Assembly: GCA_015680905.1 (NCBI GenBank)
Contig: CM027382.1
Coordinates: 9,273,501-9,337,500, forward strand
DNA from: Coptis chinensis
Taxonomy: Eukaryota > Streptophyta > Magnoliopsida > Ranunculales > Ranunculaceae
Length of the DNA stretch: 64,000 nt
Direction: 5' to 3'
Every line of letters starts with the position of its first letter. Position 1 is the stretch's first letter. A program made the translations under genes and the position numbers. Of this stretch, positions 10,752 through 59,000 are shown piece after piece. Below the pieces are notes generated by a model. It worked only from the letters and a program-made list of their open reading frames with translations. It did no database searches and was not told the DNA's origin.

Positions 10752-11506
10752 TGTGTATACATATTTATGCAAATAGGAAGTAGACACATGACAAAACTAT
10801 TTATGCAAATATGGAGTAGACATATGACAACACTTCTGTAGTAATTGGATAACGTGTAAGTATGGGTAAGAAGTACCAGAACATACTTTGAGCTCACTTC
10901 CAGATCAACACATTTCCTATGGAATGGAAGTGGAACTACAAGAGGAGTTGCTAGATCTTCGGAACTGACTAGTATTGCAGGATAGAAACTCCACTTCCTA
11001 GTCAGGAACTCCAAGTTTGGAAATACACGTTCGGAACTTGTCCAAGTTTGGAACTCCACTACTTCCTAGCTAGTCAAGAACTCCACGTTCGGAACTTGTC
11101 CAAGTTCGGAACTCCACGTTCAAAACTTGTCTAAGTTTCTTTGCTAGTTTGGAACTTGTCCAAACTCGGAACTTCATGTTCGGAACTCCACTTCCTAGCT
11201 AGTCATGAACTCAACGTTAGAATCTTGTCTAAGTTTTCTCGGAACTCTAGTTCGGAACTTTTCCAAGTTCGGAATTCCACTTCCTAGCTAGTCAGGAACT
11301 CCAAGCTCGGAACTCGACTTCCTCTATGAGAAGTTCAAGTTCAGAACTCCACTTCTTAGCTAGTAAGGAACTTAACTTTCTCTATGGAAAGTTCAAGTTC
11401 GGAACTCCACTTCCTAGCTAGTCAGGAACTCCACGTTTGAAACCTAGTCAGCAGGAACCCCACGTTTGGAACTTGTCCAAGTTTAGAACTCCACGTTCGT
11501 AACTTG
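10752..11506 (+). repeat. Diverged LTR-like segment with short tandem repeats, inside X
   Basis: It starts TGTGTATACATATTTATGC, preceded by atgggcata, and continues with aagtatgggtaagaagtacc. Both resemble the first 130 bases of the X LTR, but they are clearly diverged. From about 10900 it becomes an array of units such as ggaactccacttcctagctag and ggaacttgtccaag, about 30-60 bp each. The CACTA element has inserted in the array. It may be a degenerate LTR of a relative of X, or an internal region derived from the LTR. Confidence 0.55.
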
Positions 11507-11586
11507 CACTACTAAAAAAAAGACATATTATGATGCATGTTTTTTTATCTATCTTGACGGTTTTGTTGAAAAACGTCAAGATAGGT

Positions 11587-11850
11587 GTCTTGGTGATATT
11601 TTTATGACGGATATTGCAACAATATGTCGTGTATGACACAGGCATCAAGAAAATATTGTAATTTCATGACGGCTATTCCAACATTATGTCGTGTAAGACA
11701 CAGGCATCAAGAAAATATGATAATTTCATGACGACTATTCCAATATTATGTCATGTAAGACACAAGCGTCAAGAAAATATAATAATTTCATGACGGCTAT
11801 TCCAACATTATGTCGTGTAAGACACAAGCGTCAAGAAAATATGATAAATT
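11587..11850. repeat. Subterminal direct repeats of the CACTA element
   Basis: Four copies of a unit of about 62 bp, containing catgacggctattccaac and caagaaaatat, lie near the left end. The right end has shorter dispersed ATGACGGTTTT motifs (about 14575-14880). Subterminal repeats are the known binding sites of the CACTA transposase (TnpA in En/Spm). Confidence 0.85.
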
Positions 11851-12177
11851 TATGACATGTTTCCTAAAACAGTTAGGTTAGCAATATAATAAACCGTCAA
11901 CACACCAATTTTTTGGGTTGCATTGTTTGACCATTTTGGCGTTCAATTGAACCGTCAATAACAAATAAAATAAGCATCAGTAAATTGCTAAGAAACAGTG
12001 AACTGTCAATAAATATTTCCTTCATGACTAAGCCTAAACAAGCACACATTCACTCTGCGTCTTGAGTTCGAGGTCTATCCATTAGAAAATAAATCTTTGT
12101 TTTTCCGATTAAAACGAAAAAATTATTTCCTTTCCTTTCCAGTTAAAATTTAACAAACACAGTAAAAAAAATTGAGT

Positions 12178-12510
12178 AACAATGGAGGAAATCACAGTCA
12201 CGCCACTATTGGTAAAACTTCTCTTCCATCTCCTCTGTGCATAGAGAAAAAGGTGCCTCCTTTACTTTCTCCCAAATTTGATTTTTCTTCGGTTTTGCCA
12301 GATTCAAGTGGAAAGCGTAGGTTCACCAATCTGAATTCTTATTCAAATCTAACTCATATTTGATGAACCTTCTCTAACATCTCTGAATGGAGAAAAAAGT
12401 ACCTCATTTTCTCCTAAATTTTGATTTTTATCTATTCGAATCTTTGAATTTTCGTTTTGGTTTTCTCTGATTTAAATGGAAGCCTTAGAATTGGATCGAT
12501 CAAGGTATGC
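12178..12510 (+). other. Possible captured 5' exon sequence in the CACTA element
   Basis: Low-complexity plant-like coding sequence with two small open stretches (one reading SNNGGNHSHATIGKTSLPSP; one starting MEALELDRSR at 12476). The second runs into a good splice donor, GTATGC, near 12506. The intron to the next exon (12615) ends in a normal acceptor. I do not recognise the source gene, and the sequence could simply be promoter and 5' UTR of the captured locus. Confidence 0.3.
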
Positions 12511-12614
12511 ATCTTTGTCTCAATTTCTTCATAAACTTATGTTTCATTTGAACTACAGCCGTAATCTCTTGTACCTTTTCCTTTCTTTTCTTTGGTTGAT
12601 TGTATTTGCTACAG

Positions 12615-12799
12615 GGTGCACTGAAGAGTATAAGGACTTACATGGGACCTGTCCATATCAAAGATATTGCCCTTGCTCAAATTCTGTTATATGAGAATTC
12701 AGCGGCATCAGGTCGGCACCTGTGTGTTGAAGCCATACACCATTTTAGTGACTTCGCAGCTAGAGTTGTAAAACTTTACCCTGAATACAAGGTGCCCAG
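12615..12799 (+). pseudogene. Captured exon of a cinnamoyl-CoA-reductase-like gene
   Basis: The peptide contains GPVHIKDIALAQILLYEN, then SGRHLCVEAIHHFSDFAARV and YPEYKVPR. This is the region late in cinnamoyl-CoA reductase and related short-chain dehydrogenase/reductases (VHVKDVALAHILLYEN...GRHLCVE). The full enzyme reduces hydroxycinnamoyl-CoA esters in lignin synthesis. The exon keeps an acceptor (CTACAG) and a donor (CCCAG before GTAGTG), so it was copied as genomic DNA. The NADP-binding N-terminus and catalytic site are absent. Only about 62 residues remain, so it is a fragment, carried inside the CACTA element. Confidence 0.8.
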
Positions 12800-13057
12800 G
12801 TAGTGAACTTTACCCTGAATTCACTTGTTTTATAACTAGAAGCAGGAGCATAGTTTTTCTGGTTACCACACATATTATCAAGGGATTTCTACATAAGCTT
12901 CTATTTTGTGCACAAGATTTTTGATAAAACATTCAGATGGGAGCATTCTGTTTCATTTTGTTTACTCATGTTCCAATCCACAGTTCTACTTAACGTTATA
13001 TTCAGTTTAGAAACATGTATTTGACGTAAAATTTGCATTCTTGTTCCACATCCCACT

Positions 13058-13392
13058 TCCAGAATATACTAGCCTTGATTCAACAAACTTCACAGGTGTG
13101 AAACAGGAAGTTGGGGCATTGTTCGGCTTCCATCAACTCGAGCTTCTTTGCATCATTGTTAGAAGCAGGCGATGTTAAAGCCGTTTTCACTGGCCATGAT
13201 CATCTAAACGACTTCTGTGGCGAGTTAAATGGTATACAAGGTGGGATAGAAGGGCTAGAGTGGTCATCATGACACTAGAAAAGACAGATAAGAAAGGTTG
13301 GGGAGCAATGAAGTCGATCAAAACATGGAAGCGCCTTGATGATCAAAACCTCACTACAATTGATCCTCAACTCTGGCTCAAAAGCTTTGTTG
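13058..13392 (+). pseudogene. Captured exon of a purple acid phosphatase 29-like gene
   Basis: Segments in this stretch read PEYTSLDSTNFTGVKQE, LLEAGDVKAVFTGHDHLND, FCGELNGIQ, then RRARVVIMTLEKTDKKGWG and MKSIKTWKRLDDQNLTTID. This matches the C-terminal part of the plant probable inactive purple acid phosphatase 29 group, including the GHDH metallophosphatase motif. The frame shifts near 13100 and again near 13245, and the stretch normally found between GIQ and RRARV (about 15-20 residues) is missing. A donor GTAAGC follows at 13393. It is a broken host-gene fragment carried by the CACTA element, in the same orientation as the reductase exon. Confidence 0.8.
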
Positions 13393-14901
13393 GTAAGCGT
13401 ATCTGTACCAATAAAATATCGAAAATGACTAAAATTTATAGATTTATTGACTACGTGAGTGTAGGGTTGGCGTATAGCATAAGCATGTAGACAACTAATA
13501 TGATTTATTGAACTGTATGGCTAGATGTAATTCTTATATAGTACCCATTAAAAGCTTGATCTGCCAACTTGAGAACATAAAACTAGGCACAATTTTTCTT
13601 CCATGCATATAGCATGGTACCACGTTAAAGTTTTTCGCTTATCTTTGAATTGTATGGACTGACCATTATTGCCAAGCCTAAGTATAGGATTTACATGACT
13701 ATATGAGGGTGGATTGCTATGGATCCTTTCTCAGCAGCTCATAGATGACACTAGCACCTCCATTTGCTCATCCTAGATATCACCAGCACCTCCTTAGTTT
13801 CTTCAAGAAACTAGCAGATAGGAATTTCAAATTATTTTTTTAGCACACCCTCTTATTTTGTAATACTCATAGAACTTCTAAAGTGATTAAACTTCATTTT
13901 TGATGGTCTATGTGAATTTGTTGTGTATAGTTGGTATTGTTTCTTCTAAGTAAAGTAAATGTTTTGTGTTCCAACTTCAAATAATTGTTGAATCAACTGT
14001 GCACACAGCCCACAACTTGGTATTTTTTCACAAGAACTTATATGATAAGATAAATATATATTTATTAGTTAGTTGCTTACTTGCTGCCCCATAAGGTGAT
14101 CCAAGTAGTGGTTGGAAATACTCTTTAGCACTCTAGTCTTGTTGTTGCAATTGTTTAGCAATTCCATTGAGTTTGTGTTATTACTTTCGTCTTGTCAGAA
14201 GTACCGTTTTTTTTTTTTCCTTACATTGTTTTCTTTGAATGATAGACTCTTCTTATTTTCTTTTTGGATTTCGATCTTTTGCAGGTGAAGTTTGGACAAG
14301 GTTCGATGAATGAAACTCAAATCATGCAAACCGTTCTTTTTGAGACATATTTTGTGGATATTTTTGGTTAAATGTATGTAATTTTTTGAAATGGTGGAAT
14401 GTAATGGATTCTATTTTGTGAATAGATCACGAACTGGCTAGTTTGTTACATTTGTGATCATGTTAAGTTGTTTGCAGTGGAGTTTGCTTGTATGCTATAT
14501 GATTTAATTTATTCAATTTTCTGGGTATAAAATATTTTTTAATAAATATTTTTTTCTAGAAAATGTATATTTTTATGACGGCTTTGCCAAAGCCATCACA
14601 AATTGAACAGGTTTCTTGATGGTTTTTGCTGAAAATTATGACAGTTGTACTAAAATTAATGACGGTTACTGTGTAACACTCAATATTTCATTGCCCATTA
14701 TGACGGTTTTAGCCTTATTTTTGACATAAAATCTTTGAAGTACATAACGGTTTTTGTAAAACTGTCATAAATTTAATGACGGTTTTGGTAAACTTTTATG
14801 ACGGGCTCTATAATGACGGCTGTTATTTTAATGAAAACACGTCATTAAACCCGTTTCATGATGGCTTTTAGCCGTCATTATAAGTCTTTTTTTTAGTAGT
14901 G
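13393..14901. other. Rest of the CACTA element, no gene seen
   Basis: Mostly AT-rich sequence that behaves like an intron after the PAP29-like exon. An acceptor (TTTTGCAG) lies at 14284, followed by a short open end (GEVWTRFDE). The last 330 bases hold the subterminal repeats and the terminal inverted repeat. No transposase domain is visible on either strand. Confidence 0.5.
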
Positions 14902-14904
14902 TTG

Positions 14905-15188: not shown

Positions 15189-15719
15189 TGTGTGTACATA
15201 TTTTTACAAATAGATATGTCACATGTGGCAACATCTTGTTAAGGCTCGGATATGGTCTTGGTGTGGGTAGGAAGTACCAAAACACACTTTAAGTCCAAAT
15301 CATGACTAACTTACTTCCTAGGTTCGAAAGTAAAATAAAAAAAAGAAGGCTCGGAATTGATTAGAGTAGTAGGCTCGGAGAACTGGAGGTTCGGAACTAG
15401 TTGGAGTAGTAGGCTCGAAGAACTGGAGGTTCGGAACTGGTTGAAGTAATAGGCTCGAAGAATTGGAGGTTCGAAACTAGTTAGGGTACATAGTAGGCTT
15501 GGAGAACTAACTCCTGACTATGAACACCAAATTCGGAAGTACTAAGCTCAGAACTCCAACTCCAACTCCTAATCCGAACCTGAACATGTTTCCTTGTTGT
15601 TCAAGTCAATAAAGGAGACTTATTGATTTGGGAAATATGAGCTTCTAGAAGAGTTTGGATAAGACTTAACAAGAGATTGTTTCCTAGGTAAACACTAATT
15701 ACTTAATTCACAAGTAATT
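15189..15719 (+). repeat. 3' LTR of X, left part
   Basis: Aligns to the 5' LTR of X from its first base, with extra copies of the roughly 45-bp ttcggaactggttggagtag unit. It is interrupted by element Y after the target site taatt (15715-15719) and resumes at 40636. Confidence 0.85.
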
Positions 15720-19439: not shown

Positions 19440-22400
19440 GGCGCTCTGACTGTCACATATAACTACAAACTATTTCTGCTTTAGCCCTAGTTCATTGAAG
19501 AACCTCTTCATCCATAGTAACTCTTTGCAACACTCAATGGCTGCAATATACTCGGCTTCTGTAGTTGAGAGGGCAACACACTTTTGCAACTTTGATTGCC
19601 AAGAAACTGCTCTCCCTACAAAAGTAACCAGATAATTAGAGGTGGACTTCATCGAGTCAACATCACCTGCCATGTCTGCATCAGTGTAGCCTTCAAGTAA
19701 GGGCTTACTTCCACCAAAGCACAAGCACAATTTGGAAGTGCCCTTAAGATATCTCAATATCCATTTAACACCTTCCCAATGCTCTTTACCCAGATTTGAC
19801 AGAAATCGGCTTACAACAGCAACGGCGAAAGCAATATTCGGTCTTGTACACACCATTATGTACATCAAGCTACCCACTGCAGATGCATAAGGAATCTTTT
19901 CCATCTGACTCTGCTCATGCTCACCCTTTGGACACATATCTTTGGTCATGCGGAACTGGCTACCAAGCGAACAACTGACTGGCTTCGCTTGATCCATGTT
20001 GAATCTCTTCAACACTTTCTCAATGTAGCTTTCTTGGGAAAGCCACAACTTCCCACTCTTTCTATTATGAGTGATCTGCATCCTAAGTATCTGCTTTGCT
20101 TGATCTAAATCTTTCATCTCAAAGGACTTACTCAAGTCTTTTTTCAGTTTGGATATCTTGTTGATGTTTGGGCCAACTATCAACATATCATCCACATACA
20201 GCAATAACACTATGAAATCCCCATCTGGAAATCTCTGAACAAACACACAATGATTAGAAGCAAACTTCTTGTATTCTTGCTTCGCCATAAAGGAATCAAA
20301 CTTTATGTACCACTATCTCGGGGCTTGCTTCAACCCATACAAGCTCTTTATCAGCTTGCATACTAGGTGCTCCTTGCCTTTGACCTCAAACCCCTCTGGC
20401 TGGTCCATGTAGACATCTTCTTCAAGGTCTCCATGAAGAAAAGTTGTCTTAACATCTAGCTGCTCAACCTCTAGGTTCATACTTGCGGCCATACCCAATA
20501 CCACCCGGATAGAAGTCATCTTCACTACAGGAGAGAAAATCTCATCAAAGTCAATCCCTTTTCTTTGATTGAATCCCTTCATAACAAGGCGAGCTTTGTG
20601 CCTTGGGTGAGGATTGTTCTCCTCATGCTTGACTTTGTATATCCACTTATTCTTGAGAATTTTTCATCCTTGCGGTTTCTCAACTAACTCATAAGTGTGA
20701 TTCTTATACAAAGAATCCATCTAGTCATGTATGGCCTTCAACCACTTTTCTTTGTCTGTACCTTCAAGTGCCTCTTGATAGTATATAGGTTCTCCACCAT
20801 CCGATAGTAGCACGTACGTATATGGTGGATACCTGGTTAAAGCTAGTCTCTCTCTGTTTGACCTCCTTACCCCATCTGTTGGTGCCTCAGTAGGATGCAC
20901 TTCTGCTTGCTCTAGTGGTGGTTCATGCATCTCATCTGCATCTTCTATACTAATAAGTTATATCCCATCATGAGCAATATGATTCTCATCATGAGGTTTA
21001 AACTCATGGTTCTCTGCATTTTCAATGCTTTCTACACGTTCCATAGTAGGAACTTCTGGTTCTGAATCAACAAGATCATTGGTGAAAGCCTGTAGCTTCT
21101 CACCCTCCTCAAAGTCTGCTATGGTTTGGTCTTCCAGGAACACAACATCTCAAGTTCGGATTACCTTCTTGTTAATCGAATCATAGAGTTTGTAACCAAA
21201 CTTTTCATCTCCATAACCCAGAAAAATGCACTGCTTGGCATTGTCATCAAGCTTGCATCTCTCATCCTTCAGAATATGCACAAATGCCCTACACCCAAAT
21301 ACCCTCAAGTATCCATAATCAACATCTCTGCCTGACCATACTCTCTCTGGATAGTCACTATTCAGAGGTTTCGACGGCGATAGGTTGATCACATGCACGA
21401 CTGTATGCATTGCTTCTACCCAGTGGGTTCTAAGTAGCTTAGAGTGAGATAGCATGCATCTCATCCTCTCTAAAATGGTATGGTTCATTCTCTCTGCTAT
21501 TCTATTATGTTATGGTGTCTTGGGAATAGTCTGCTCATGACGAATCCCATGACTCTGGCAATATTCTTCAAACGGCCCAATGTACTCACCCCCATTATCT
21601 GAGCGAATACACTTCAACAACTTTCCAATCTCTCTTTCCACCATGCTGTGGAATTTCTCAAACATGCCAAGTACGTACTTTATTCTTGGTCTTCAGACTA
21701 TAAGCCCATATCTTTCTTGACGTATCATCAATGAAGGTCACGAAGTACGAAGCTCCCCCGTGGGACTTCACTTTAATAGGACCACATAAGTTTGTGTGCA
21801 CTAGTTTAAGGACATTGTCCTTTCTGTGAGACGGAATCTTTGGAAAGACACCCTGTGTTGCTTTCCTACCAAACAGTGAGTACATGTACTTAAATGTGTA
21901 CCTTTGATGTCTGGCAAGGCCTTTTACTTAGCAAGAACTTCCATCCCTTTTATGCCCATATGACACAGTTTCTTGTGCCACAGTTCGGAGGAAGCTTCTT
22001 CTTCTGCCACATTCACTTCTGCTTTACACAAACTATCCTATGTTTTGAAAAGAGAGCAAGTTTTCTTCCCTCTGGCTGCTACAATGGAACCTCTGCTCAG
22101 TTTTCATATCCCGTTACCAAACGAGTTTACAAAGCCATCGTCATCTAACTTCCCAGCCGAAATTTAGTTTAGCCGAATGTCAGGGACATGTCTTACATCC
22201 TTGAGTGTCAAGGTGTAGCCGACATTGGTTTCTACATGAACATCACCAATGCCTATAATCTTCGAGATGCCATTGTTACCCATCTTCACTTCACCATATT
22301 CAACACAGCTGTAGGTAGTGAATAATTCCTTGTGTAGTGTGACGTGATAGGATGCTCCTGTATCTATCACCCACTATGTATCCTGACATGAGGTACTAAG

Positions 22401-28799: not shown

Positions 28800-31700
28800 A
28801 GCCATGCTAACCAGGGATACAAACTTTGAGGAGATTAGGAATGTTTTCAAGAATCTAACGATAAACCTTCTTTTTCTCGAAGCTATTAAAAAGCTACCTA
28901 ACCACGCTAAGTTTCTTAAAGAGTTGTGCACTACTAGGCGTAAGACCAACATACCTAAAGACGCCTTTCTAACTGAACAGTTCCCAACTTTATTCGAAAA
29001 TAATAGAATTGTTAAGTACAAGGACCCTGGTCGTCCTACTGTAAAATGCACCTTAGGAGATTCCCACACGACGACCGCTTTATTAGACCTGGGGGCGAGT
29101 GTTAACTTACTCCCGTATTACTTGTATAAACAAATAGGTCTACAGGAAATGCAACCTACAAAAATAACGTTGCAATTAGCGGATAGGTCAATTAAGTATC
29201 CTAAGGGTGTAGTGGAAAACGTGCTTGTTAAGGTTTAGGATTTTTACTATCCTGCTGATTTTGTTATCCTCGATACGTAAGTATTAACGACTCAGACTGC
29301 CGATCATCTTAGAAGCCCCTTCTTGGCAACCGCCAACGACTTATAAATTCTTTGCGACGGTAAGATGTCCTTATCTTTTGGCCATCTTACGGTTGAGGTA
29401 AATGTTTTAAAATGATGAAACAGTTACGGATTCGTCTATAGATGGGGAGGTTAGCATGATCGAGAGTTTAGCTCAAGATTATTTTAACAACACGTTTCCC
29501 GAAAACAATATGTACAAATTCCTTTCTTTTGGAACTTCAGATTTTGTAAATGACTCCTACTTAGAGGAAGTCAACACCATCCTTGAGTCCACACCAATTG
29601 TAGACCCTTCGGTTGCTCCATATACTGAGTATGAAGACTTGCTACCTAAGCAAGTATTCATTATGCAAAATGAGGACCCCGATAAAACATCTATTGATTT
29701 TCCATCCACCCCAGTGCTTAAACCTCTTCCCCCGGAGTTAAAATATATTCAACTTGATCCGGATGGTAGTCATCCAGTAATTATATCTTCTCTATTATCT
29801 AGGAATGAAGAGACACATTTAATCCGGGTGATTAGGGAACATCGGTCGGCGATTGGTTGGTCCCTAGCTGACATTAAGGAATTTGACCTAATGTTTGCAC
29901 TCATCATTATCCATTTGGAAGATAACGCCAAGACTTCGCGAACCTTAGCGTTGCTTGAACCCTGCCATGAAAGAGGTGGTTAGGGAAGAAGTCTTACGAT
30001 TACTCGATGCGGGTATTATATACCCAATCTCTGATAGCGAATGGGTAAGCCCCATTCATGTAGTTCCTGTGAAATCGGGAGTTACCATGGTACGTAATGG
30101 GAAGGGTGACTATGTTGTCACACAAGGTCCTATGAAATGGAGGATCTGTATTGATTACAGACATTTAAATGCTATGACACGAAAGGATCACTTTCCTTTA
30201 CCTTTTATAGATCAAATTCTCAAACGCCTAGTTGGTCATGCTTTTTATTGTTTTCTGGATGGCTACTCAGGCTATTTTCAGATTATTATTGATATTGATG
30301 ACCAAGAAAAGACTACCTTCGAACGTATGCCTATAAATGAATGCCTTTTGGCCTTTGTAATGCTCCTGGTACCTTCCAGCGGTGTATGCTTCATATATTT
30401 AGTGACATGATAGAGTGCTTTATGGAAGTTTTCATGGATGATTTTTCTATCTATGGAGACTCCTTCACAGACTGTTTGTCTAACCTGTCTAAGGTTTTGA
30501 CACGGTGTGAAGAAAAGAGCCTCGTTTTAAACATGGGAAAAGTGTCATTTCATGGTGAAAAAGGGCATAATACTAGGTCACATCGTATCTAGTGATGGCA
30601 TCGAAGTAGATAAAGCCAAACTAGATAAGATAGCGACCCTACCTAAACCACGGACTGTCCGTGATATTAGAGCCTTTCTAGGCCATGCAGGTTTTTATAG
30701 GCGGTTTATTAAAGACTTCGAAAAATAGCTAGGCCTTTAACTAATCTGCTTTTGAAAGATGCAATCTTTGATTTTAATTTTAACTATACGCAGGCTTTTG
30801 AAACTTTAAAAGCCGCCCTAACCTCTGCACCAATTATACAGCCTCCCGATTGGTCTAAACCTTTCGAACTCATGTGTGATGCTAGTGACTATGCAGTTGG
30901 TGCAGTCTTGGGACAAAAACTAGATAATAAGTCCACTGTTATTTATTATGCTAGTAAAACCTTAAACGATGCTCAACGGAATTATTCAACTACTGAAAAA
31001 GAATTTTTAGCTGTCATTTATGCTTTAGATAAGTTTCGTCCTTATTTGGTTGGTTCTAAAACTTTAGTTTACATGGACCATGCAGCCCTTAAGTACCTTC
31101 TTGCAAAGAAGGATGCTAAGCAGAGATTAATCCGTTGGATCCTTCTCCTGCAAGAGTTCACATTAGAAATAAAGGACAAAAGAGGGGTCAAAAACGTAGT
31201 TGCCGACCACTTATCTAGACTCACAAACGACGATCAAAGTGATTCTGAGTCCATACCGGACTCTTTTCCTGATGAGCATCTGTATGCGATTTTTTCAACA
31301 CCATGGTATGCTGACATTGTAAATTATTTAGCGGCTGATGTTATGCCTTATAATTGGTCAAGAAATGAACGTAAGAAGTTCTTAGCGAGTTAAGTTATAC
31401 TCTTTGGGATGAGCCATACCTTTTAAGTATTGTGCGGATCAGATTATTCGTCGTTGTATTCCCCAGTGGGAATATAATGAAGTTTTATCGTTCTGCCATG
31501 ACAAGGAGTGTGGTGGCCATTTTAGTGGGATGAAAACAGCCGCTAAAGTGCTTCAATATGGATTTTATTGGCCTACCCTTTTTAAGGATGCCCAAGTGCA
31601 TTGCAAGACGTGTATTCGTTGCCAACAACTTGGGCGAATCACGAAGCGTAATATGATGCCATTAAATCCAATCTTGATAGTAGAAATTTTTGACGTTTGG

Positions 31701-32480
31701 GGCATTGATTTCATGGGTCCTTTCCCAGTTTCCCACGGTTTCATTTATATTCTAGTTGCCGTGGACTACGTGTCTAAATGGATAGAGGCCCTAGCTTGCC
31801 ATAACAATGACCATAAGACCGTTGTATTTTTTATTAAAGAATATATTTTTCGCCGGGTTTGGCATTCCTAAAGCCATCATTAGTATGGTGGAACACATTT
31901 TTGCAACAGAGTTGTTGCATCCCTAGTGAAAAAGTATGGAGTTACACACAAAGTAGCAACTCCTTATCATCCACAAACTAGCGGACAAGTAGAAGTTTCT
32001 AATAGGAAATCAAAAAAGATTTTAGAAACAACTGTAAAACCCCGATAGGAAAACCGGTCGAAGCGTCTATCAGATGCCTTATGGGCGTATAGAACTGCTT
32101 TCAAAACTCATATAGGTATGTCTCCCTTTAGACTTGTATTTGGGAAACCATGTCATTTGCCCGTTGAATTAGAGCACCGTGCTCTGTGGGCTATAAAAAG
32201 CCTTAACTTAAATGTTGATGAGGCAGGTGTCAAACGCAAGTTGCAATTGAATGAGCTTGAAGAAATCCGTAGCGATTCTTACGATCTCGCGAAGGATTAT
32301 AAAGCTAACATGAAACGTGTTCATGATAAGCAAATCTTGCGCAAAGAGTGTGGTCGGTCAAAAGGTCTTGCTTTACAACTCCCGTCTACATATTTTCCCA
32401 GGGAAACTAAAAACCCGTTGGTGCGGCCCTTTTCGTTCTTGGAAGTAACCCCTTACGGGCAATCACCTTGGTAAATCCCA
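28800..32480 (+). pseudogene. pol of Athila element Z
   Basis: Domains in gypsy order. The aspartic protease region shows TALLDLGASVNLLPY (about 29080). Reverse transcriptase (about 29955-30600) has KWRICIDYRHLNAMT, FLDGYSGYFQI and the active-site stretch VFMDDFSIYGDS. RNase H (about 30790-31230) has [13 protein letters not shown] and [20 protein letters not shown]. Integrase (about 31500-32120) has the zinc-binding part, CKTCIRCQQLGRI, and DVWGIDFMGPFPVSHGFIYI. The C-terminal stretch has [21 protein letters not shown] broken fossil. Confidence 0.88.
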
Positions 32481-42412: not shown

Positions 42413-43187
42413 CGGTTGGAAAATAAAGCTTTAAATAATAACCCTACATACACGTGTATGGTGAAAGTCAAATTAAGGTGCATCACTAGTTTCCCCCTTC
42501 TCCATAGTCCTTCGAGTTGCCACATTCCCCCTGGTATGTATCTTTTTTTTTCCTGCTCTCTATCCTTTCACCGTTTTTAATGTCTTAAGTATTAACCTTT
42601 TTATCAAGTATTATTTGTCTTATAGATATATTAATTTATTTATAAGTGGTTTGTCTTTTTGAAACTTTTGTTACTTACTACAAATTGATGGTTCAAGTGA
42701 AAGATTACTAAATATAGATTCTGTTAACTATTTGGAGTCCAGAATTGCACTTTCTTGTTTTGCTTAAAAATAGACATATTAACTTTTCTTTACTTTAGTA
42801 TTGAAATGGGAGGAACTTAAGGGGGTGTTAGAAATGTTACAAACTTGAGGTATAACTTTTATTGTTTTCTTTTGTCACTTTAGAATGCTAGTTTGTCAAA
42901 TGGTGTACATAGTGACAGCGAACAATGTAGTTAATGTTAATATTGTATTGTATGTTTTTTTCTTGAAACGTTTCTGTCAATATATGGATTCTGGAATCAT
43001 GTGATTGTTGGTGTAACATGGTATGATCATTTTTTTTTTTTTATCTTACAAATATTTGTTGTTACGAGTGCCCAAATAGTTAATAAGCGCATTTGGCATC
43101 ATTCTTAGTGTAATTTATCTATGTAACTTAGTTCTGCTTTCTGAATCATTAGTTTTCATTGTTCCTTCAGTTTTCTTTCCGAGTAGA
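42413..43187 (+). promoter_or_regulatory. Upstream region and probable 5' UTR intron of the FEX gene
   Basis: No coding sequence here. A pyrimidine-rich stretch (tttcccccttctcc, 42490-42503) resembles a plant 5' UTR. A donor (CCCTG before GTATGT, 42534) and an acceptor (TTCCTTCAG, ending 43170) would frame a 637-bp leader intron, leaving 17 bases of UTR before the ATG at 43188. Leader introns are common in plant genes. No TATA box is clear. The leader structure is inference; cDNA would settle it. Confidence 0.4.
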
Positions 43188-46100
43188 ATGGAGTTTACTG
43201 GCAGGAATGATATTCCCAGAAACCAATCTGAAAGAGCTACAATAAGTATCAGTCAAGATTCCCTTCCAAGCATTTTAAATGAGAGAAGTAATTCTCATCT
43301 AAGTCTTAGTAGAAATAACAGCGAGCACAGCACTGTCATTGGAGGACATGGTGGTGTGTCTTTTGATCGTACGAGTAGTGTGGGTGCTTCTTCTTGGAGA
43401 AGGCCTTCACAAACTTCCTCAAATCAGGTGGCTCCTGAACTCTCTGATGATGACATTGAGAGTGAGGTTATTTCTCAAGCAGGAGATACAGGGGAAGTAA
43501 ATAGTAAGCTGTATAGTGGGAGTGGTACTCCCCGTTCTTCGATGGATAACTTTATGTCTGTTGAGGATGGAATTGTACCGATTACTGAGGATCCATACGT
43601 GCAAACATTTGGGGCTTGGTCCCGTGGTACCAATGCATTTAGTACAGTATCTGTTGTGTCTCCACTTCCATCGGAGATTGTATCTTCATTTTCTACAGAG
43701 CCAGCTCTTCATCCAAGGAACAAAAACCTGAGTACATCAGCAGAAATGTCAATCCCACATGTTAAGGTCTGTTCTAATTTACTATTTGCATATGAACTTT
43801 TTGCTGTACTATGTTAAATCATTGTTGAGAAAGCATCTTGTGCTTGAAATAGAATAGATTGAGTGCATGCTTTAATCTGCAGTCGTGTTGGGCTATCACC
43901 CTTAACTTGAATATATATTATAGTAAAGAATGTGAAAAAACATAAATTCACATGGTGTTGGATTAGGAGGTTAATGAATATATGATGGAATTGTTTGCAG
44001 GAGAGCAAGAAAGAACTGCCCTGTTTACTGGAGTACATATCAGCTCTTACTCACCTTGCAGTTTTTGGAATTCTTGGGGTAATATTCTCTCTCTCTCTTT
44101 TACTTCGTTGTATACTGTAAGACACAACATTGCAAGTGTAATTTCGAGATTCTGCAGTGTTACCTATCGCTGTAGTATTTGAAGAGCTCTGTATCCTTCT
44201 TATAATAATGATTATAAACATATTTGTTGAACCTCATGAGTGATCGCTACACTTTTGACTAAGATCACATTGCTATTTTTCTGATTTTGAGCTCTTCAAG
44301 TTGAAAGGAACCTAGGCAACTCTATTGTTGATATTTAAGTATTTAACAATTCACTTGATCTAAATTTAACTGTTCAGTATGGAGTCTGACAATTCGAATT
44401 CAATAAAAAACTACTAGTGTTCAGACTCTTCGCGCTAAATGGACAGTTTGAAAGACCTTAAGTACATACTAACCGACAGTTTAGCCATAATGATTCTAAC
44501 TTTGTTAGAGAAGATATATAACTGTTTACGTGAAAGACATTGGATGCTGATCTCTATCAACAGACGAGAAATATATCGGAGTACCTAGAGAACAGATAAA
44601 AAATGGAGGTTACTTATTAAAGTTTTTTACTCATCTCTTACCTAGCCATCCAGTTAAATAAACTTATCAAACGAGAGAAGAATGTGTCTTTACTGGTTCA
44701 TCTCTTATCTACTCATCTCTTTACTGGTTCATTCCTTCATCTTTTGATTATGCATAATGCATAGATATGCAATGGACCTAACTTTTTATATGCACTACAA
44801 TCAGGTGTTTACACGTTATTTACTCCAAAAGTTGTTTGGCCCCGAAGTTGCTGGTATAACAAGCGATCAAACCTTTGTGTACATCGATTTGCCTTCTAAC
44901 CTGGTAACTCTCTCTCTCTCTCTAACTTACACACCTAGATTAGAGAAGGTATAATGTTTTCTATTAATGACTGTTATTCTTTTGTAACACTTACATAACT
45001 GTAAAAGTAACTTAAAATTTCTTTCCAAAAGAAATTCTGAAGGTTAGAGCTAATTCCTATTCCATGATTGGTGACTGGCTGAGATGTCATTTAACATTCT
45101 TTATGGTGAAACTCTTGAATACGATGATTTATTTTCTTTCAGGTAGGTTCTTTCTTGATGGGCTGGTTAGGCGTCGTGTTTAAAGGGGACATATCTCGTG
45201 TGTCTGATCTTCTAGCAGTTGGGTTGACAACAGGGTACTTGGGAAGCCTCACAACTTTCAGTGCTTGGAATCAGAAGATGCTCGACCTCAGTGTTAACGA
45301 TCAATGGTTACAGGCGATCGTGGGCATTTTACTAGGTATGGATGCGAATTATACTCTCATAGTAGAGCTGTAAGTGTATATTGCTTTCACTTGTCAACAT
45401 GGACCGTTTCTAATGCTGTGCAACTAAACACAAAACAATTGATTTGTGGTCACAATGTTTCTATTCACAAGCTAATGAGCACCACACAACCAGTCCACCA
45501 CTCATACACAAGTAGAAGTGGGCAATGGGCTTCGGAATGCATTATATTGCATTTGAGACCCAGGTAAAGCACAATGTCAAAACAACTGATAAGTTTAAAC
45601 TTTTAACCCTAAGCACTTGTATCCAGAGCATAGAGTAGCACTTTTTGATTTAAAAATACCCTTGTGTGATCTCACAATTTCACTTTCAAATTTTAATTAT
45701 GTTTATGGAGTTATCCTAATAGTTTGCCTATGTAGTTCCTGGGATTGAATCTGTTGTTTAAACTCAGTCCAATTTCATCACAACTTGTATAACATCTTTT
45801 GTGCTACTCTTTTACATCTATAAGAATAGAACATTGTTTCATTACTTTTCCACCTTGCATTGCTCCCACAATTATTGCTGTGTTTTCATACACCGAGTTT
45901 ACATCTTCCTTTGCTACAAGAAAACTACTTTATTTTGACACTCGTTTGCTTACAAATGGTAGGGGTGTTTTATATAGAAGTTATGAGGATTTAGTTACTC
46001 GAAAATCTGTGGTGTCAACATTTTCATTGTCAACTCCATTGTTTCGCATTTTCCCCTATAGGTTCCAAGACCGTGGATATACCATTCCTAATCAAAGTCT

Positions 46101-49074
46101 ATTACCTTATATATGTCTAAGACAAAAGTGTGGGTAAAATATTAGATGAAGCCAGGTTCTTCAGTTTGGGAACTTCTATCTGTTAGGAATTTAAGCTTTG
46201 GGAAATGATGAACTCTGAAAGCTTCAGATCCAACTTTTAAAGTGGAGTCAAAGTTTTGAAAAGATGTTGTACTAACCCATGGTCATTCTTAGACATGCTA
46301 ATATGCTATGGGACGGATGAATGATCAAATTTTAGACAATCTTTGGTTCAATTAGATAACCATTTGGGTGGTCAGAGCTCCAATTAGGTAACCGTTTGGG
46401 TGATCAGAGCCGTTGAACATTTTTACATTATTGCAAGAAGTTTACTGTCTTAATCTAATTTGTTGTATCTAGTTAGTTTTAAATCTCTTTATTATATTAC
46501 ATTTTTGTTTTGATACAGCAATTTTATGTATGAAGGTTGTTGCTTACAATCCAAGCCTATGTGCTAAATAGCACTAGGTGGGGGCTATGCGGGTTTTATT
46601 CCTAATAAATATATATATCATAATAACAGAGCGACCGAGAGAGAGAGAGAGAATGCGATCTATTTTGAGAGGCCTGAAGTAAAACACGTACTATTCTTTT
46701 TCTTCTAACTGTATTGGTCTTCAGTCTCTTAAACCTGTGCTCAAATCTCAAGCCTTCTCAGGCCTTTTCTTTTGGACAAGTTCCTCAATTTTCAACAGTT
46801 TTTTTTTGAGCCCGACTACACCACCTAGAGGCCAATTAGTCTCCCTAGCCCAACTAATCGACCCACCATTTTTTTAACTGATATTAGCCCTTGGCAAGTC
46901 GGCTGGGCACCGCCTAGACACTGCCTAGGCCGATTTTTAGAACACTGACCCAAGCAAATAGGTTTAAAAGAAACCACCAGTTGTTGCCACTCAACCTAAG
47001 CTTCCATGTTAGTGTCCACCAGGGCCAAAGGTACCACCCCTGAAGGCTAATCGACAATGGAGGCTGGAGCTGTAACCCCAACTCTTGATAAACTTGACCA
47101 GAAGACAATCATAGCTAGTCCTAAAGGGATTCATTAGTTACAGGAACAAAAGCTCCGCAGGCGACACCATTGAGTTTTGAACCGGCAGCCTCCCTAATGA
47201 GGGGAGTGCACACTGCACAGCCAACTGAGCCACAAGCTCAAGTGTAACCGTCGTAATTTATAGTGGTAAATCCAAAATTATGCGTAATCATGCAAGCTAG
47301 GAGTTGCTTCACAGCTTCCTAGTTTTCTCATCAGCTTCAATTTACACTGAACAAATGCACATCAACTTTTGACTTACCTACAGTAGACAACTCATATTAT
47401 AAGATATAACTCATGCGTATGTAGTTAAACCACTGAATCAATGTTTCTTTCCCTTTTAATGTGTAACAGGACTTTGGATGGCAGATGGATCCATCCATGT
47501 GGGCATTGAAACAGCTAAAGGTTTCAGGTGGCTAGTTAACAGATCTTCCACAGGTTCAAGAGGTGATGCATCAAGTTCAGGAAGCAAATTTAAATTTAGG
47601 ATAGGAAGCTTGAGACAGCATACAGCAGTACTGGTTTTCTTGATGTTAATCCTTGCCTTATTATGGGGTCTTAGCGCGGCATTACTTAGAAGGTGGCTAG
47701 ATGGTGGCAACACCAATGGTCAACTGTGGTTGGCGTGCATTGTTGCACCCCCTGGTGTGTGGGCTAGGTGGTTCCTGGCTCGGCTCAATGGACGAGGGCT
47801 AGGAAGAAATGGCTCGTTCAAGTGGATTCCTTTTGGAACTTTAATTGCCAATGTTTCAGCAGCTTGTGTGATGGCAGCACTTGCAACAGTGAAGAGAGTG
47901 GTAAGTTTCTTTAATAAGTTGTTTATACGAGCGTGATACAATCTATCATAATATCATTGTGTGTTATAGCAGAGAAACACCAAAATACTGGAACAATAAA
48001 CATCCATAACTGTTACTTTTTAAGTAGGAAGTGTCATTAGCATCTGCAAGAAAAGAGGAACTCTGTGGAGTGACTCTCAAAAGAATCTCTAGAAATGCTG
48101 CCAGGGTCGAGGTGAGGCGCACTGCTTCCCAACTGCTGCCTTCGGGTGCCTTTGACAACAATCCACGACAGTTTTACTTAAAATTGGCACCTTGGGCATG
48201 AACGCCTTGGTGGCACTGGCACCTTGGTAGTACCTTTGACAACATAGTACAAACAAACCGTTTTACGAGGACATGACTTATTCACTTCTTGAAGTTTATA
48301 ATCTGAATGCATTTGTCTTTCAACAACTCGTTTAAGAGTTGCTCTTTCATCCTTTTTTAAGAAACCATATGAAAGATTGAACCATATTGGAATCCATCTA
48401 AATCTTCCTATGTCGACATTTAAGTATAGTCCAGATTCTTGGATTCAACCAAACATAAAAGAGTAATATCTGAAAATCATCTAAAATTTTGTGTTATGAC
48501 AAAACATGATGTAGACATTGGCTTCTATGAAAGTCAAAACTTTCTCATGCTTTGGAAACTTATCAGTTGAGTGTGACTGTTTCTTGCTTAAGACCTTCAT
48601 TTGGTAGACTAACGAAAAATTGTACGGTTCTGTACTTAATTATTGAATTCCAATGTCTACGGTGCATATTAATGTGAAATCTGATGTTGTAGTCTTACAG
48701 AACGAGTTCTTTTTCATTAATATGTTCTTGTGATCATTCAAACTTCGCTAACAGACATGTATGTTTCCATAGTAGATGAAAGGAATTTAGGTTACTGAGC
48801 CATGCACATTATTATGGTTACTGGGTTTCTAAAGATTATATTCTGTTTGGTTCAGGTGAACAGCGATAAGTCTGAGACAATTGCAACAGGCATTCAATTT
48901 GGGTTGTTAGGATGTCTGAGTACTGTTTCTACGTTCATTGCTGAGTTCCATGCTATGCGTGAGAGCAAGCACCCTTGGAGAGCTTATCTATATGCCTCGA
49001 TTACTATACTTCCCTCCTTTATCTTGGGTACTTTTATATATTCCGTACCGGTGTGGACGAAGGCATACCAGTGA
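43188..49074 (+). CDS. FEX: Fluoride export protein, two-domain CrcB/Fluc family (plant FEX)
   Basis: A six-exon gene: 43188-43766, 44001-44078, 44805-44903, 45143-45335, 47470-47900, 48856-49074. All junctions are GT-AG and the frame closes through to 532 residues. Plant FEX exports fluoride across the plasma membrane; the eukaryotic form fuses two CrcB domains, where bacteria use a dimer. Residues 1-193 form a Ser-rich hydrophilic N-terminus. Domain 1 (about 215-335) has GVFTR across the exon 2/3 junction, LPSNLVGSFLMGW and the pore motif GSLTTFSAW. Domain 2 (about 375-530) has GVWARWFLARLNG, PFGTLIANVSAACVMA and GCLSTVSTFIAEF. Each has about four membrane spans. The gene looks intact. Intron 4 is long (2,134 bp) and holds a SINE-like insert. 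A diverged second copy of exon 5 lies downstream at 51625. Confidence 0.92.
46799..47240 (-). mobile_element. tRNA-derived SINE-like insert in FEX intron 4
   Basis: On the minus strand the head, near 47240, reads GAGCTTGTGGCTCAGTTGG, a box A match (47221-47232). About 40 bases on comes GGTTCAAAACT, a box B match (47173-47183). Together they make an internal RNA polymerase III promoter like that of a tRNA. The sequence continues leftward through ggcctaggc-type repeats to a T-run (46799-46807), which is an A-tail on the minus strand. At about 440 bp it is long for a plant SINE, so the left part may be a second element. Target duplications are not clear. Confidence 0.6.
47901..48855 (+). other. 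FEX intron 5
   Basis: A 955-bp intron with donor GTAAGT and acceptor GGTTCAG. Around 48100-48250 it holds a loose repeat of words such as gtgcctttgacaac and ggcaccttgg that may come from an old transposable element. No gene seen. Confidence 0.6.
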
Positions 49075-49674
49075 CAGTTTCCAAGTTGGGGTTCATTCAT
49101 AATTTGTCAAAAGTATGGATTCATAGACATCAGTACAAATTCACCTGTAGTACTGGAATTGATAATTAAAGTCTGGCAGTCCCATCCATGTGGTTTTTAA
49201 AGTGAATCCTTGGATGCTGAAATCCAAAAGTGCTTGAATTGTTGCGAGGATGTGACTCCCACCATGCCTTGCTTGGAGCCGAGATCAGTGGGGAGTGGGG
49301 GATGGTTTTATTCATCTATAACTGCAACTGCATGCTGCCACTATGATGCGGGCATGGCAACTAATGTGCATTGGGAAAGTAGGTTAAGCATCCATGTACT
49401 TCGTGTAAGCCCTATTCATCCAATTTTGTTTATGTAATTTTGTATTTTTTTTTTTCTGTGGCCAACTCTTCTCAAGAGCAGTCTGTAGCACTAATTATCA
49501 GAAGATGTGTTTTGACATACATGTAAATGCCTGTATAGTTAGGATGTAAAACACTTCTGTAGAAGCTCTTTTCTGATAATAATATTTTGAAAGCGTTGGG
49601 AAGTTTTAATGGATTGCGAGATATTCATATTCTGAGCTTACTAAAATTTCTGATCCAGTCAGCTAGTAGATTAT
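49075..49674 (+). other. 3' UTR and downstream flank of FEX
   Basis: No gene. The first 500 bases probably include the FEX 3' UTR; an aataat-rich stretch (ctgataataatattttg, near 49573) could serve as a polyadenylation region. Past about 49650 the sequence leads into gypsy element H. The exact end of the transcript is not visible. Confidence 0.45.
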
Positions 49675-51509
49675 ATGTGGTTTACCAATTCATTAACCTT
49701 GATCTTATATTTCACTTTAGTGAGAGTCAATACAGATAATCAAGCATTGAAGTTCTTAAATACGTCAGCTAAGGTCAATCGGCTGCATGATCGTTGGTTG
49801 TCAACCATCCACAAGTATACCTTTTTAGTAAAGCATAAGAGTGGGAAGTTGAATCAAGTTGCCGATGCTTTAAGTAGGCGTGCTCATCTCCTTGTGACTA
49901 TTCGAAATGAAAGTGTGGCTTTTGATTATCTCAAAGATCTTTATGGTGAGGATGAGGACTTCAAGACAATGTGGGAAAAGTGTCGATCTCGTGCTCATGG
50001 TACGGATGACTTTCTCATTCAAGATGGTTTTCTCTTTAAAGGTAATCGTCTTTGCATTCCTCAAGGTTCTTTACGTCTTCATCTTATTCGTGAATTACAT
50101 GGAGGCAGACTTAGTGGACACTTTTGTCGTGACAAGACCATTGTTCTAGTGGAAGGAAGATATTATTGGCCTTCTTTGAAGCGTGATGTTCAGAAGTGTA
50201 TGGTTTGTCAGAGGTCTAAAGGCACTATTCAAAATACGGGTCTCTATACTCCCTTACCAGTCCCGGATGCTCCTTGGGTTGATGTTAGTATGGATTTTAT
50301 CCTGGGATTACCTCGTACTCAGAAAGGTAATGATTCTGTCATGGTGGTTGTTGATCGCTACTCCAAGATGGCTCATTTTGTTGCTTGCAAAAAGACTACA
50401 GATGCTTCTAATGTGGCTACTCTTTTCTTTAAAGAAGTAGTTCGTATACATGGGGTGGGTTCCAAAATCGATTACTTCTGATCGGGATACTAAGTTTTTA
50501 AGATACTTTTGGAAGTCCACTGCAGTTTAGCACTACTTCTCATCCCCAAACGGATGGACAAACGGAAGTTGTCAACCGTTCTTTGGGAAATTTGATTCGA
50601 GCAAAGTGTATTGACAATGAACGACAGTGGGATAATCTTCTTCCTCATATGGAGTTTGCTTTCAACACTTTGGTGAATCGCTCTACGGGTAAGACTCCTT
50701 TTGAGATTGTGTACTCTAAGGTGCCTAATCATGTTCTTGATTTAGTGGTGCTTCCAAAGTTTCGAGGGTCTAATGTAAAGGCAGATAATCTGGTGGACAA
50801 AGCTTCAATTCTACTGTTCATTATGAAGTCAAGGCAAAGCTTCAAGAGTCTAATACTAATTATTAGAAAGCTGCGGATAAGCGTAGGCGTTTTAAAACAT
50901 TTCACGAAGGCGAGTTGGTGATGATTCATCTTCGCAAAGAACGTTTTCCAGTTGGTACTTACAACAAGACAAAAATGAAGAAATATGGTCCTTTCAAGGT
51001 GTTGAAGAAGATAAGTGACAATGCTTATGCAATCGATCTTCCTCCCGAATGGAGCATCTCCAACATCTTCAATATGCAGGAAATCTTCACTTTTCATGGC
51101 GATAATGATCAGATCATGTTATTTGACGACAACTCGAGGGCGAGTTTTTCTCAAGAAGGCGGGATTGATGCAGGATGCTGCCTTGTTCCTGAATAATAGG
51201 AAGTTGTATTCAACTTCCTTATTATTTGGAACTCGGTTTACATGTATGAAGTTGGGTTATTTTAGAAGTCTGGTTTCCACGTACGGTTATAGTTAGGAAT
51301 TCTATTTTCTTTGTTATTTTGCTAGTATAAATAGAGAGATAGGCAAAACATGTAGGATCTTTTGCCGAAACAATTGAATATATAAACTTTCTCTCCAAGT
51401 TTTATTTTTATTCTTCAAATACATTATTTTCGTCTAAATCGCATCTCTTTCTTCACTTCGCATCTCAACGATCTCCGCATCGTGTTCTTCCACAACAAGT
51501 ACTACATCA
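49675..51509 (+). mobile_element. H: 3' part of a Ty3/gypsy element
   Basis: Fossil. The parts present are the end of RNase H ([31 protein letters not shown], about 49720-49880), integrase (about 50050-50920, with [40 protein letters not shown]), its C-terminal tail to 51196, and the 3' LTR. Gag, protease and most of reverse transcriptase are absent. Only a few breaks. No chromodomain is evident in the tail, so the lineage within gypsy is left open. It lies between the FEX gene and the second exon-5 copy. No age can be given from one LTR. Confidence 0.8.
51166..51509 (+). repeat. 3' LTR of gypsy element H
   Basis: Starts TGATGCAGGATGC and ends CTACATCA, so the terminal five bases form an inverted repeat. 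A TATA box (TATAAATA) lies at 51326-51333, and a purine-rich tract (aagaaggcgggat) sits just before the LTR. At 344 bp it is short. Confidence 0.75.
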
Positions 51510-54929: not shown

Positions 54930-57900
54930 ATGATTACAGAGGCCATTCCAACCCCTGTTCTCATCACCAAAGACACCGATCCAGCTCGGGCGACTACTTT
55001 CACTCTCCCTCAGATCGCTAAAGTATCACCATATGAAGAAGCGTCACCGCCCAAGACAAAACCTCAACAGGTCGACAGAGAGAGAGTGAACTTAGGAACT
55101 GATGATGATCCCAAGTTTGTATATGTAGGGGCTAACCTTGACCCTACACTCAAGGCCCAACTTGTAAACTTTTTGGCCATGAATAAAGATGTTTTCGCTT
55201 GGTCATATATCGATGTACCCGGAATAGATCCCAACGTAGCATGTCATAGATTAAATGTAAACCCCAATGCTAGACCAGTTCGCCAACGACCTCGCCGCTT
55301 ATCCCTGCAGTTTCAAAAAGCCATTAACGACGAGGTCAACAAACTCAAGCAGGTCAGTTTCATCAGAAAGGTCGACTATCCAGACTAGATCGTGAACAGT
55401 GTCGCGGTCCCCAAAAAGAATGGAACAGTTCACCTATGTGTCAATTTCACGAATGTCAATCACGAAACCCCAAAAGATAGTTTTCCCTTACCTCATACTG
55501 ACCGACTTGTCGACCAGACCTGTGGGCATGAACTTCTCTCCTTCATGGACGCGTACAACGGATACAACCAAATCCCACTCGTTGAGGAAGATCAAGAGAA
55601 GACCTCGTTTATTGCTACAACGTCCTCCCGTTTGGCCTTAAGAATGCCGGAGCGACATATCAGCGTCTGGTAACTGACATGTTCCAGGACATGTTAGGTG
55701 AGACCATGGAGGTTTACATCGACGACATGGTCATCAAAAGCAAGAAAGCAGGCAACCACATCACTCACCTTGAGCAAGCGTTCTCCAGGTTGCGCCGCAC
55801 TCGAATGAAGTGGAACCCAGAGAAATGCCTTTTTGGAGCGTCCTCTGGTAAGTTTCTAGGATATCAGGTGTCATAGCGAGGGATCGAAGCAAATTCAGAC
55901 CAAATCCGGGCGTTCTTAGACATGCCTGATCCACAAACAAAGAAACAGATACAGAAGTTGTTAGGCATGGTCGCTGCACTCAACCGATTCATATCCAGGG
56001 CGTCAGACAAGTGTCGCCCATTCCTACAACTCCTCAAAAAAGGCGAACCGTTCTCATGGAATGCTCAATGCCACCAAGCATTCGCCACTCTCAAAGAATA
56101 CCTCACCACGCCTCCCGTCTTAGCCAAACCAATAGATGGCGAGACACTGGGGCTATATCTGGCAATATCAGACTTCACCATCAGCTCAGTTCTCTTCAAA
56201 GAGGAGAACAACTCAAAAAAGCCGATCTACTTTACAAGTAAGACGCTCACGCCAGCTGAAAGGAATTATTCTTTCCTTGAAAGAGCCGTACTTGCTTTAT
56301 TGTATTCGGCCAGAAAATTCAGGCCGTACTTTCAAGCACATCCGATCAAAGTACTGACCGACCTCCCCTTGAAGAAGATCTTCCACAAAGAAAACAAGAC
56401 TACTCATATGGCAGTATGGGCCGAAGAGCTCGGCGAACACCACATGGAGTTTGTACCTCGCACTTCTCAGAAAGGTCAAGTCGTCGCCGATTTCCTAGCA
56501 GATTTCCCTGTTGAGGACCCACATTGGGAACCAGAAATGGAGCTCGCAGACACAACAGAACGTGTCAAATCAATCTGGTCTCTCTTTGTAGATGGCTCTA
56601 GCAACCCTAGAGGGAGTGGCATCGGGGTCGTCTTAGTGTCACCCGATGGAACTATGATCGAAAAGTCCGTTCGACTCGACTTCGCATCTTCCAACAACGA
56701 AGCGGAGTACGAAGCGTTAATCATGGGACTTCGTATGGCGCTACAGCTCGATGTGCAAGAACTTCAAGTCTTTAGTGACTCGCAACTGGTCATTCGCCAG
56801 ATTGCAAAAGAGTACACTACCCATGAAGGTAACCTTTCAAAATATCTTCAGGTCGTTCATCATTTATTGCCTTCTTTTAAGAAAGCTACCATACATCATT
56901 TTTTGCTTGATGAGAACCGTCATGCAGACAGTTTAGCTTATTTAGCCACTCAAACACCGAGTTGCGTTCTAAGACAACTCCTCATTGAAGTGGTCGACCG
57001 ACCTGCGTACCAGGTCGAGCATGCCCTAGTTATAACCGATCTGTTCCCTCTCTCTGAAAATCAGTTGAGCCAGACCTGGATGCAACCCATCATGAACTAC
57101 ATCCACCATGGCGCGCTCCCTGCAGAACGTGCCAAAGCCAAACAAATCCCATATCAAGCACGTCGTTATTGCTTATTGCATAATAAGTTATTCAGGAAAT
57201 CTGCTAGTGGACCACACTTGCGATGCATTACTCCAGAGCAGAGCCAATTGATATTTGCGGAAATCTATGAAGGAGAATACGGAAACCATACCAGAGGTTG
57301 CTCTTTAGCCCACAAGGAAATTTCCCAAGGATACTTTTGGCCCCGTATGCAGATCGATGCCAAAGCATACGTCCTCAAGTGCGTAAAATGTCAAACATTC
57401 GGCCACAACATCATCCAGCCCGCTCACGAGCTGATCAATATAGCGAGCCCATGGCCATTTCACATGTGGGGTATGGACATCATGGGACCTTTCGTCCCAC
57501 GTAAGATTAATCGGTTTTCGGTTTCGTCTTAGCTGCAATGCACTATTTCACTAAGTGGGTCGAGGCCATTCCTTTAGCACATGTCAAAGAATCACATGTC
57601 GAAACTTCATCGGACTCACATCATCACAGATTTGGTTTGCCACATACACTAGTGATGGACAATGGACCCCAATTCAAAGGCAGAACAGTTAAAGAATTTC
57701 TTGCCAAGTGGAAGATAGTTCATGCATTTTCTACTCCACAATACGCTCAGAGTAATGGTCAAGCAGAAGCCAGCAACAAGGACATCTTAGAAAATTTGAA
57801 GAAAAAGATTGAAAAGAACAAGAGCCAATGGCCAAATCAGTTGGAAAATATTTTGTGGGCTCATCGCACCACAGCTCGGTCAAGTACAGGCGAATCTCCA

Positions 57901-58479: not shown

Positions 58480-59000
58480 GAACATTCTCTGTGAGCAGAC
58501 AGCTCTCTGGAGCTTACAGGCTCCATAGCCTCTCCAATTCTTGTCACGTCGAGGACCTATATTTCTAGGATCGACCAAACGAGAACGCTCTCCATGAGCG
58601 AGGCGACTACGGAGCTTTATGGGCTCCATGACCTCTCCAATTTTTGTCACGTCGAGGACCTATATTCCTAGGATCGACCAAACGAGAACGCTCTCCATGA
58701 GCAGGCAGCTCTCTGGAGCTTACAGGCTCCATAGCCTCTCCAATTCTTGTCACGTCGAGGACCTATATTCCTAGGATCGACCAAACCAGAATGCTCTCCG
58801 TGAGCAGACAGCTCTCTGGAGCTTACAGGCTCCACAGCCTCTCTAATTCTTGTCACGTCGAGGACCTATATTTCTAGGATAGACCAAACGAGAACGCTCT
58901 CCGTGGGTAGACAGCTCTCTGGAACTTACAGGCTCTACAGCCTCCCGAACCTCGTTTGTCGACAAACATATATTCCTAGAGTCAACCATACGAGAACGTT
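58480..59000. repeat. 103-bp tandem repeats in the 3' region of W
   Basis: About five copies of a unit that includes gtcacgtcgaggacctat, ctaggatcgaccaaacgag and agctctctggagcttacag. Anchors at 58543, 58646, 58749 and 58852 give a period of 103 bases. The copies differ slightly, so the array is not brand new. Related words occur at the 3' end of Y (39734-40130). Confidence 0.9.

Follow-up and report, generated by a model that had tools for sequence, protein, structure and literature searches.

A probable Pack-CACTA transposon carrying decayed pieces of two host genes in Coptis chinensis

Introduction

Transposons of the CACTA class that carry fragments of host genes have been described in several plants, and the review PMC13317346 treats Pack-CACTA elements as established. 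Among the closest comparable systems is Tgm-Express1, a soybean CACTA element in the F3H gene of the wp allele, which as summarised in PMC1947982 contains exon and intron sequence from several unrelated host genes with their splice sites kept. The Pack-CACTA and other Pack-TYPE elements of Arabidopsis, rice and maize are outlined in PMC8903248 as non-autonomous elements with terminal inverted repeats (TIRs), a target duplication and host coding DNA in their central part, sometimes derived from more than one locus. CACTA elements of Chenopodium, as presented in PMC8978399, have CACTA ends, subterminal repeats, a 3-bp duplication and captured host fragments.

Here we describe an element of 3395 bp (positions 11507-14901) in a window of Coptis chinensis DNA, the window being the whole stretch of 64,000 nucleotides that was analysed. 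It shares with each of these systems the features just listed, and Tgm-Express1 is the direct precedent for it. There are also differences. Tgm-Express1 is 5.7 kb long, holds five gene pieces and lies inside an intron, whereas the Coptis element is 3.4 kb long, holds two and lies in a tandem-repeat region; moreover, chimeric transcripts of the soybean element are reported as demonstrated (PMC1947982), whereas the Coptis element is known from its DNA sequence alone. For the CACTA elements of rice and maize, PMC8903248 gives target duplications of 5 nt rather than the 3 seen here, and the species and the captured genes are others. In the Chenopodium elements the captured fragments lie outside the coding sequence and the coding domains are kept (PMC8978399), whereas no transposase was recognised in the Coptis element.

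A preliminary description of this locus regarded its combination of captured genes as, to its author's knowledge, undescribed. Judging by titles and the beginnings of abstracts, none of the papers listed in PMC searches presents this element or its pairing of a reductase with a purple acid phosphatase (PAP). Capture of multiple genes by CACTA elements is well described, however, and so the combination of genes does not in itself make a new kind of element.

The element and its ends

The boundaries of the element are defined by a pair of TIRs, both recovered by a repeat search and by a scan for CACTA pairs, and by a short duplication read directly from the sequence on either side of them:

11504..11506, no strand: target site duplication, left copy, TTG
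11507..11524, plus strand: 5' terminal inverted repeat, CACTACTAAAAAAAAGAC
14884..14901, minus strand: 3' terminal inverted repeat
14902..14904, no strand: target site duplication, right copy, TTG

The two TIRs begin with CACTA, lie in opposite orientation and are identical at 18 of 18 bp, with 93% identity when 27 bp are considered. Allowing up to three mismatches, the 18-mer matches the whole window at only two places, both of which are the ends of the element; by chance a mean of 0.08 matches would be expected, and none of 100 shuffled sequences contained two. We also collected all CACTA...TAGTG pairs in the window that are 0.2-20 kb apart and agree at 12 or more of 18 positions. Among the 41 such pairs, only the one at the element ends exceeds 13, and it alone has a 3-bp duplication (TTG) on either side. 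The best pairs in 100 mononucleotide-shuffled sequences scored between 13 and 16 of 18, a score of 16 being attained in 3 of the 100. The duplication is 3 bp in length, as the two bases past TTG fall outside any longer duplication. The perfect 18-bp CACTA ends and the ttg target duplication claimed in the preliminary description are therefore both present, the former as a pair unique in the window and the latter on both sides of the element.

The sequence around the insertion is repetitive. To the left of the element lies an array with the unit TCCAAGTTTGGAACTCCACGTTCGGAACTTG (11010-11187, 5.9 copies at 63% matches), with related arrays continuing to 11431. Joining the two flanks with a single TTG gives AACTTGTTCAAGTCTGGA, which matches the unit of the left array at 16 of 18 positions. 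In addition, the 12-mer that follows the right duplication is within two mismatches of the left-flank repeat unit; such matches occur at 17 of 63,900 start positions on the plus strand, this 12-mer included, and 11 of the 17 lie at 11010-11476. A comparison of a 70-mer of the joined flanks with the flanks themselves gave four best matches at E values of 2.5e-8 to 3.9e-7; two of these reach 7 and 12 bases across the junction, one reaches a single base across and one does not cross it. The left flank by itself scores higher against the repeat than the joined flanks, and the match ends about 12 bases past the junction. The junction thus fits insertion of the element into a tandem repeat, which we regard as support for such an insertion and not as proof of it.

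Inside the TIRs, both ends of the element are dense in the hexamer TGACGG, as determined by motif counts and, for the tandem repeat, by a repeat search:

11555..11957, plus strand: 5' subterminal region, 6 of the 13 TGACGG motifs
11594..11856, plus strand: tandem repeat with a 62-bp unit in 4.2 copies, a motif like ATGACGGCTATT being present in each
14576..14877, plus strand: 3' subterminal region, 7 of the 13 TGACGG motifs

Counting both strands, TGACGG occurs 13 times in the element (10 on the plus strand, 3 on the minus strand) whereas the remaining 60.6 kb of the window have 10 copies. Every one of the 13 lies in the outer 500 bp of the ends, and some of those on the 5' side sit in the 62-bp tandem repeat. 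Under a Markov model of the element, 0.49 copies are expected on average, and the highest number reached in 500 simulated sequences was 3. The subterminal repeats that had been noted earlier are thus evident as direct and inverted copies of one motif confined to the ends.

The element had also been described as free of transposase. In agreement with this, no Pfam match above the cut-off was found in the 12 ORFs scanned out of 39 of at least 40 aa (the longest being 96 aa). Three matches to unrelated families fell below the threshold in these 12 ORFs (best E 0.0025), and we took them as chance. A blastn search at E up to 0.01 revealed no other copy of the element in the window. The GC content is 0.43-0.44 in the two captured pieces described below, compared with 0.28-0.34 in the seven other segments of the element.

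Taken together, the sequence points to a Pack-CACTA element, a CACTA (En/Spm-type) DNA transposon that is non-autonomous and carries two decayed pieces of host genes; to this reading we assign a probability of about 0.88. Two points temper our confidence: the PAP piece does not begin at a kept splice site, and the domain scan covered 12 of the 39 ORFs. Most Pack-CACTA elements have been described in plants outside the Ranunculales, and this one would add a cleanly bounded two-gene example from that order.

Captured gene pieces

The central part of the element contains two stretches with homology to unrelated metabolic genes, the first located by protein search and translation and the second by protein search and tblastn:

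12615..12799, plus strand: cinnamoyl-CoA-reductase-like exon, with flanking AG and GT
13041..13392, plus strand: purple-acid-phosphatase-29-like (PAP29-like) near-terminal coding stretch, followed by a GTAAGC donor-like site

Both pieces matched in the protein search, at best E values of 5e-25 for the reductase exon and 9.6e-15 for the PAP29-like piece. The bare captured fragments themselves gave no Pfam match (0 of 3).

For the reductase exon, 27 of 29 candidates were matched at E <=0.001, and 26 of these 27 have reductase-type domains in a precomputed list, the remaining one (P0029) having no domain listed. A comparison with solved structures recovered 10 sequences, with a best E of 7e-11. 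The closest relative, judged at the protein level only, is the Coptis protein IFM89_012895, with which the exon shares 50 of 54 residues; a second Coptis reductase is IFM89_012896. The contig of IFM89_012895 measures 97.2 Mb, as does that given for IFM89_012896, and judging by this length it differs from the contig of the window, since a protein identical to an exon in the window, IFM89_011382, lies on one of 100.4 Mb. The exon can be read in one frame as CTEEYKDL and then in another as YMGPVH...YPEYKVP, and comparison with KDFYMGPVH of IFM89_012895 indicates, by hand count, that about 2 nt are missing near 12638, shifting the frame. The claimed cinnamoyl-CoA-reductase-like exon at 12615-12799 is thus confirmed as to homology, though its frame is broken.

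P0029 corresponds to IFM89_001392, a hypothetical Coptis chinensis protein of 232 aa encoded outside the window, on a contig whose length is again different, which contains a piece of the same reductase exon. This piece is 77% identical to the window copy over 43 aa and appears by eye to be nearer to IFM89_012896. It is cut at the identical boundary (VPR) and joined there to unrelated sequence, presumably subtilase-like. By eye, the start of the protein also resembles the same reductase exon in a shifted frame, and a Pfam search with the protein gave no match. IFM89_001392 may represent another captured or decayed copy of the exon. That this exon of the Coptis reductase gene pair is a recurrent target of capture, and that RNA from the captures could regulate the parent genes, we consider highly improbable.

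The PAP29-like piece matched 13 of 16 candidates at E <=0.001. According to the precomputed list, a Metallophos domain (PF00149) is present in all 13; four bear the name PAP29 and the others carry hypothetical or generic names. No Coptis protein that might indicate a parent gene was among these 13 matches. By tblastn with 13 relatives, the homology runs from 13041 or 13044 to 13376-13400, at an identity of just 41-45% because a single frame is read and the frames of the piece shift. When the frames are read in turn, identity to four relatives rises to 72-75%. By hand count, the piece has a net gain of 4 nt after 13109 and lacks 46 nt after 13239, the latter gap taking away the residues that correspond to LCYAGGFGYHAYGKA. 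The piece is not open throughout in any one frame. The composite translation had no match among solved structures at E up to 0.1.

The two borders of this piece differ in kind. Two relatives, P0031 (Rosa) and P0032 (Argentina), part ways directly behind the shared residues SSAG. The GTAAGC site lies at this point, and for this reason the sequence suggests that the 3' end is a kept exon border. At the 5' border there is no recognisable splice site, and the AG at 13061-13062 falls within homologous coding sequence. Accordingly, the PAP29-like exon previously placed at 13058-13392 stands as regards its homology but not as regards its start: the similarity begins at 13041-13044, and 13058 is internal to it.

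Splice sites and coding potential

The pieces have the same direction, as had been claimed, both lying on the plus strand. Read from the sequence, two further segments could flank them in a transcript:

12150..12504 (start arbitrary), plus strand: possible 5' leader with the donor-like end AAG|GTATGC
14285..14560 (end arbitrary), plus strand: possible 3' terminal exon after TTTTGCAG

The possible leader includes an imperfect direct duplication (73%) at bases 703-780 and 854-923 of the element. With regard to the splice sites proposed earlier, a donor-like GT is present where a 5' donor near 12506 had been claimed, its position being corrected to 12505-12506. Introns had been said to be kept; the reductase exon has sites resembling splice sites at both of its borders, and the PAP piece has one at its 3' border but none that is recognisable at its 5' border. 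Agreement with the donor consensus at 6 of 8 positions is seen for 9 of the 196 GT sites in the element, two of these being 12505 and 13393, and agreement at 5 or more for 41, with 12800 scoring 5. Since many GT sites in the element score equally well, these donors are unexceptional.

Donor- and acceptor-like sites bordering the pieces on one strand, together with the splicing of captured fragments into chimeric transcripts by Tgm-Express1 (PMC1947982), lend some appeal to the notion that the element yields a spliced chimeric messenger encoding a functional fused peptide. We modelled six splice forms from the reductase exon, the two donors (12505 and 13393), the acceptor at 14284 and, at 13062, a possible cryptic acceptor, and checked every ATG-initiated ORF in them. 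The longest, of 73 codons, consists of part of the PAP piece and retained intron. The longest ORF with reductase residues has 55 codons and extends two codons into the PAP exon, off the PAP frame, while reading from the ATG at 12476 across a splice between the 12505 donor and the reductase exon gives 12 codons and then a stop. No ORF in the six forms joins reductase residues to phosphatase residues, and we reject a chimeric reductase-phosphatase protein on these grounds. The 'chimeric gene' reading, appealing as it is, thus loses force after the frame check, and with three indels disrupting the captured frames and donors that are ordinary, we hold a functional fused peptide to be extremely improbable. 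A chimeric RNA from the element, as judged from these sites, is possible; if the element were transcribed, it would be expected to give a spliced or unspliced chimeric RNA lacking a long coding frame.

Origin of the element

CACTA transposase is described in PMC8978399 as binding the TIRs and leaving a 3-bp duplication. We propose that the Coptis element was moved by cut and paste, with the transposase coming in trans from an autonomous relative, and that this helper would bind the TGACGG-bearing ends, the dense motif serving as a subterminal binding region. The element would have acquired its reductase and PAP29-like DNA in one or two earlier events, and the captured pieces would have drifted thereafter. 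For Pack-TYPE elements, capture by fusion of neighbouring elements is the route favoured in PMC8903248. Remnants of internal ends were not found in the Coptis element, there being no TGACGG in the inner 2395 bp and no TIR-like site with up to five mismatches starting at 11520-14869. The absence of remnants does not exclude fusion of two elements, as internal ends may be lost, and it does not favour gap repair either.

Another history would have only one fragment, or none, aboard when the element moved, with the missing piece or pieces entering later, for example through a Helitron or break repair. The 5' border of the PAP piece, which has no recognisable splice site, counts in favour of such an entry. 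Against this, both pieces are central, lie on the same strand and are free of terminal motifs, as in the Pack elements outlined in PMC8903248, and we therefore consider later entry unlikely. As to what the element might do at present, captured gene fragments can seed small RNAs. RNA from the element might give rise to small RNAs acting to dampen the two genes, reductase and phosphatase, from which the pieces came, and the nearness of the reductase piece to a Coptis gene at the protein level is consistent with this; nonetheless, we regard such a role as very unlikely. With the element read as a Pack-CACTA transposon, its ends and the TGACGG end motif could be used to find its relatives, or its helper, in the Coptis genome.

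Other features of the window

The tandem arrays on the two sides of the element, at 11010-11431 and 15364-15482, share the word GTTCGGAACT, which occurs at six places in 11029-11397, at two in 15389-15429 and at one further place, 8303. An F-box gene or gene fragment (PF00646) lies at 1886-2749 on the minus strand. Pieces of LTR retrotransposons are found at 19470-20312 (minus strand) and, on the plus strand, at 30713-31871, 49654-50481, 55877-57532 and 62557-63171; these assignments are based on the domains that Pfam recognised in the tested ORFs, namely RVT_2, RT_RNaseH, integrase zinc-binding, rve or gag, and the ORFs adjoining these pieces look similar. A tandem repeat of 103 bp with 5 copies (58492-59008) lies a short way beyond a retrotransposon-like ORF whose end is at 58098. 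Finally, a host gene region lies at 43080-47936 on the plus strand. The exon of it that was tested, at about 43.2 kb, comes from a gene with a CrcB domain (fluoride exporter type). Among 380 candidates it had a single match at E <=0.001, Coptis chinensis IFM89_011382, with 100% identity covering 98% of the query.
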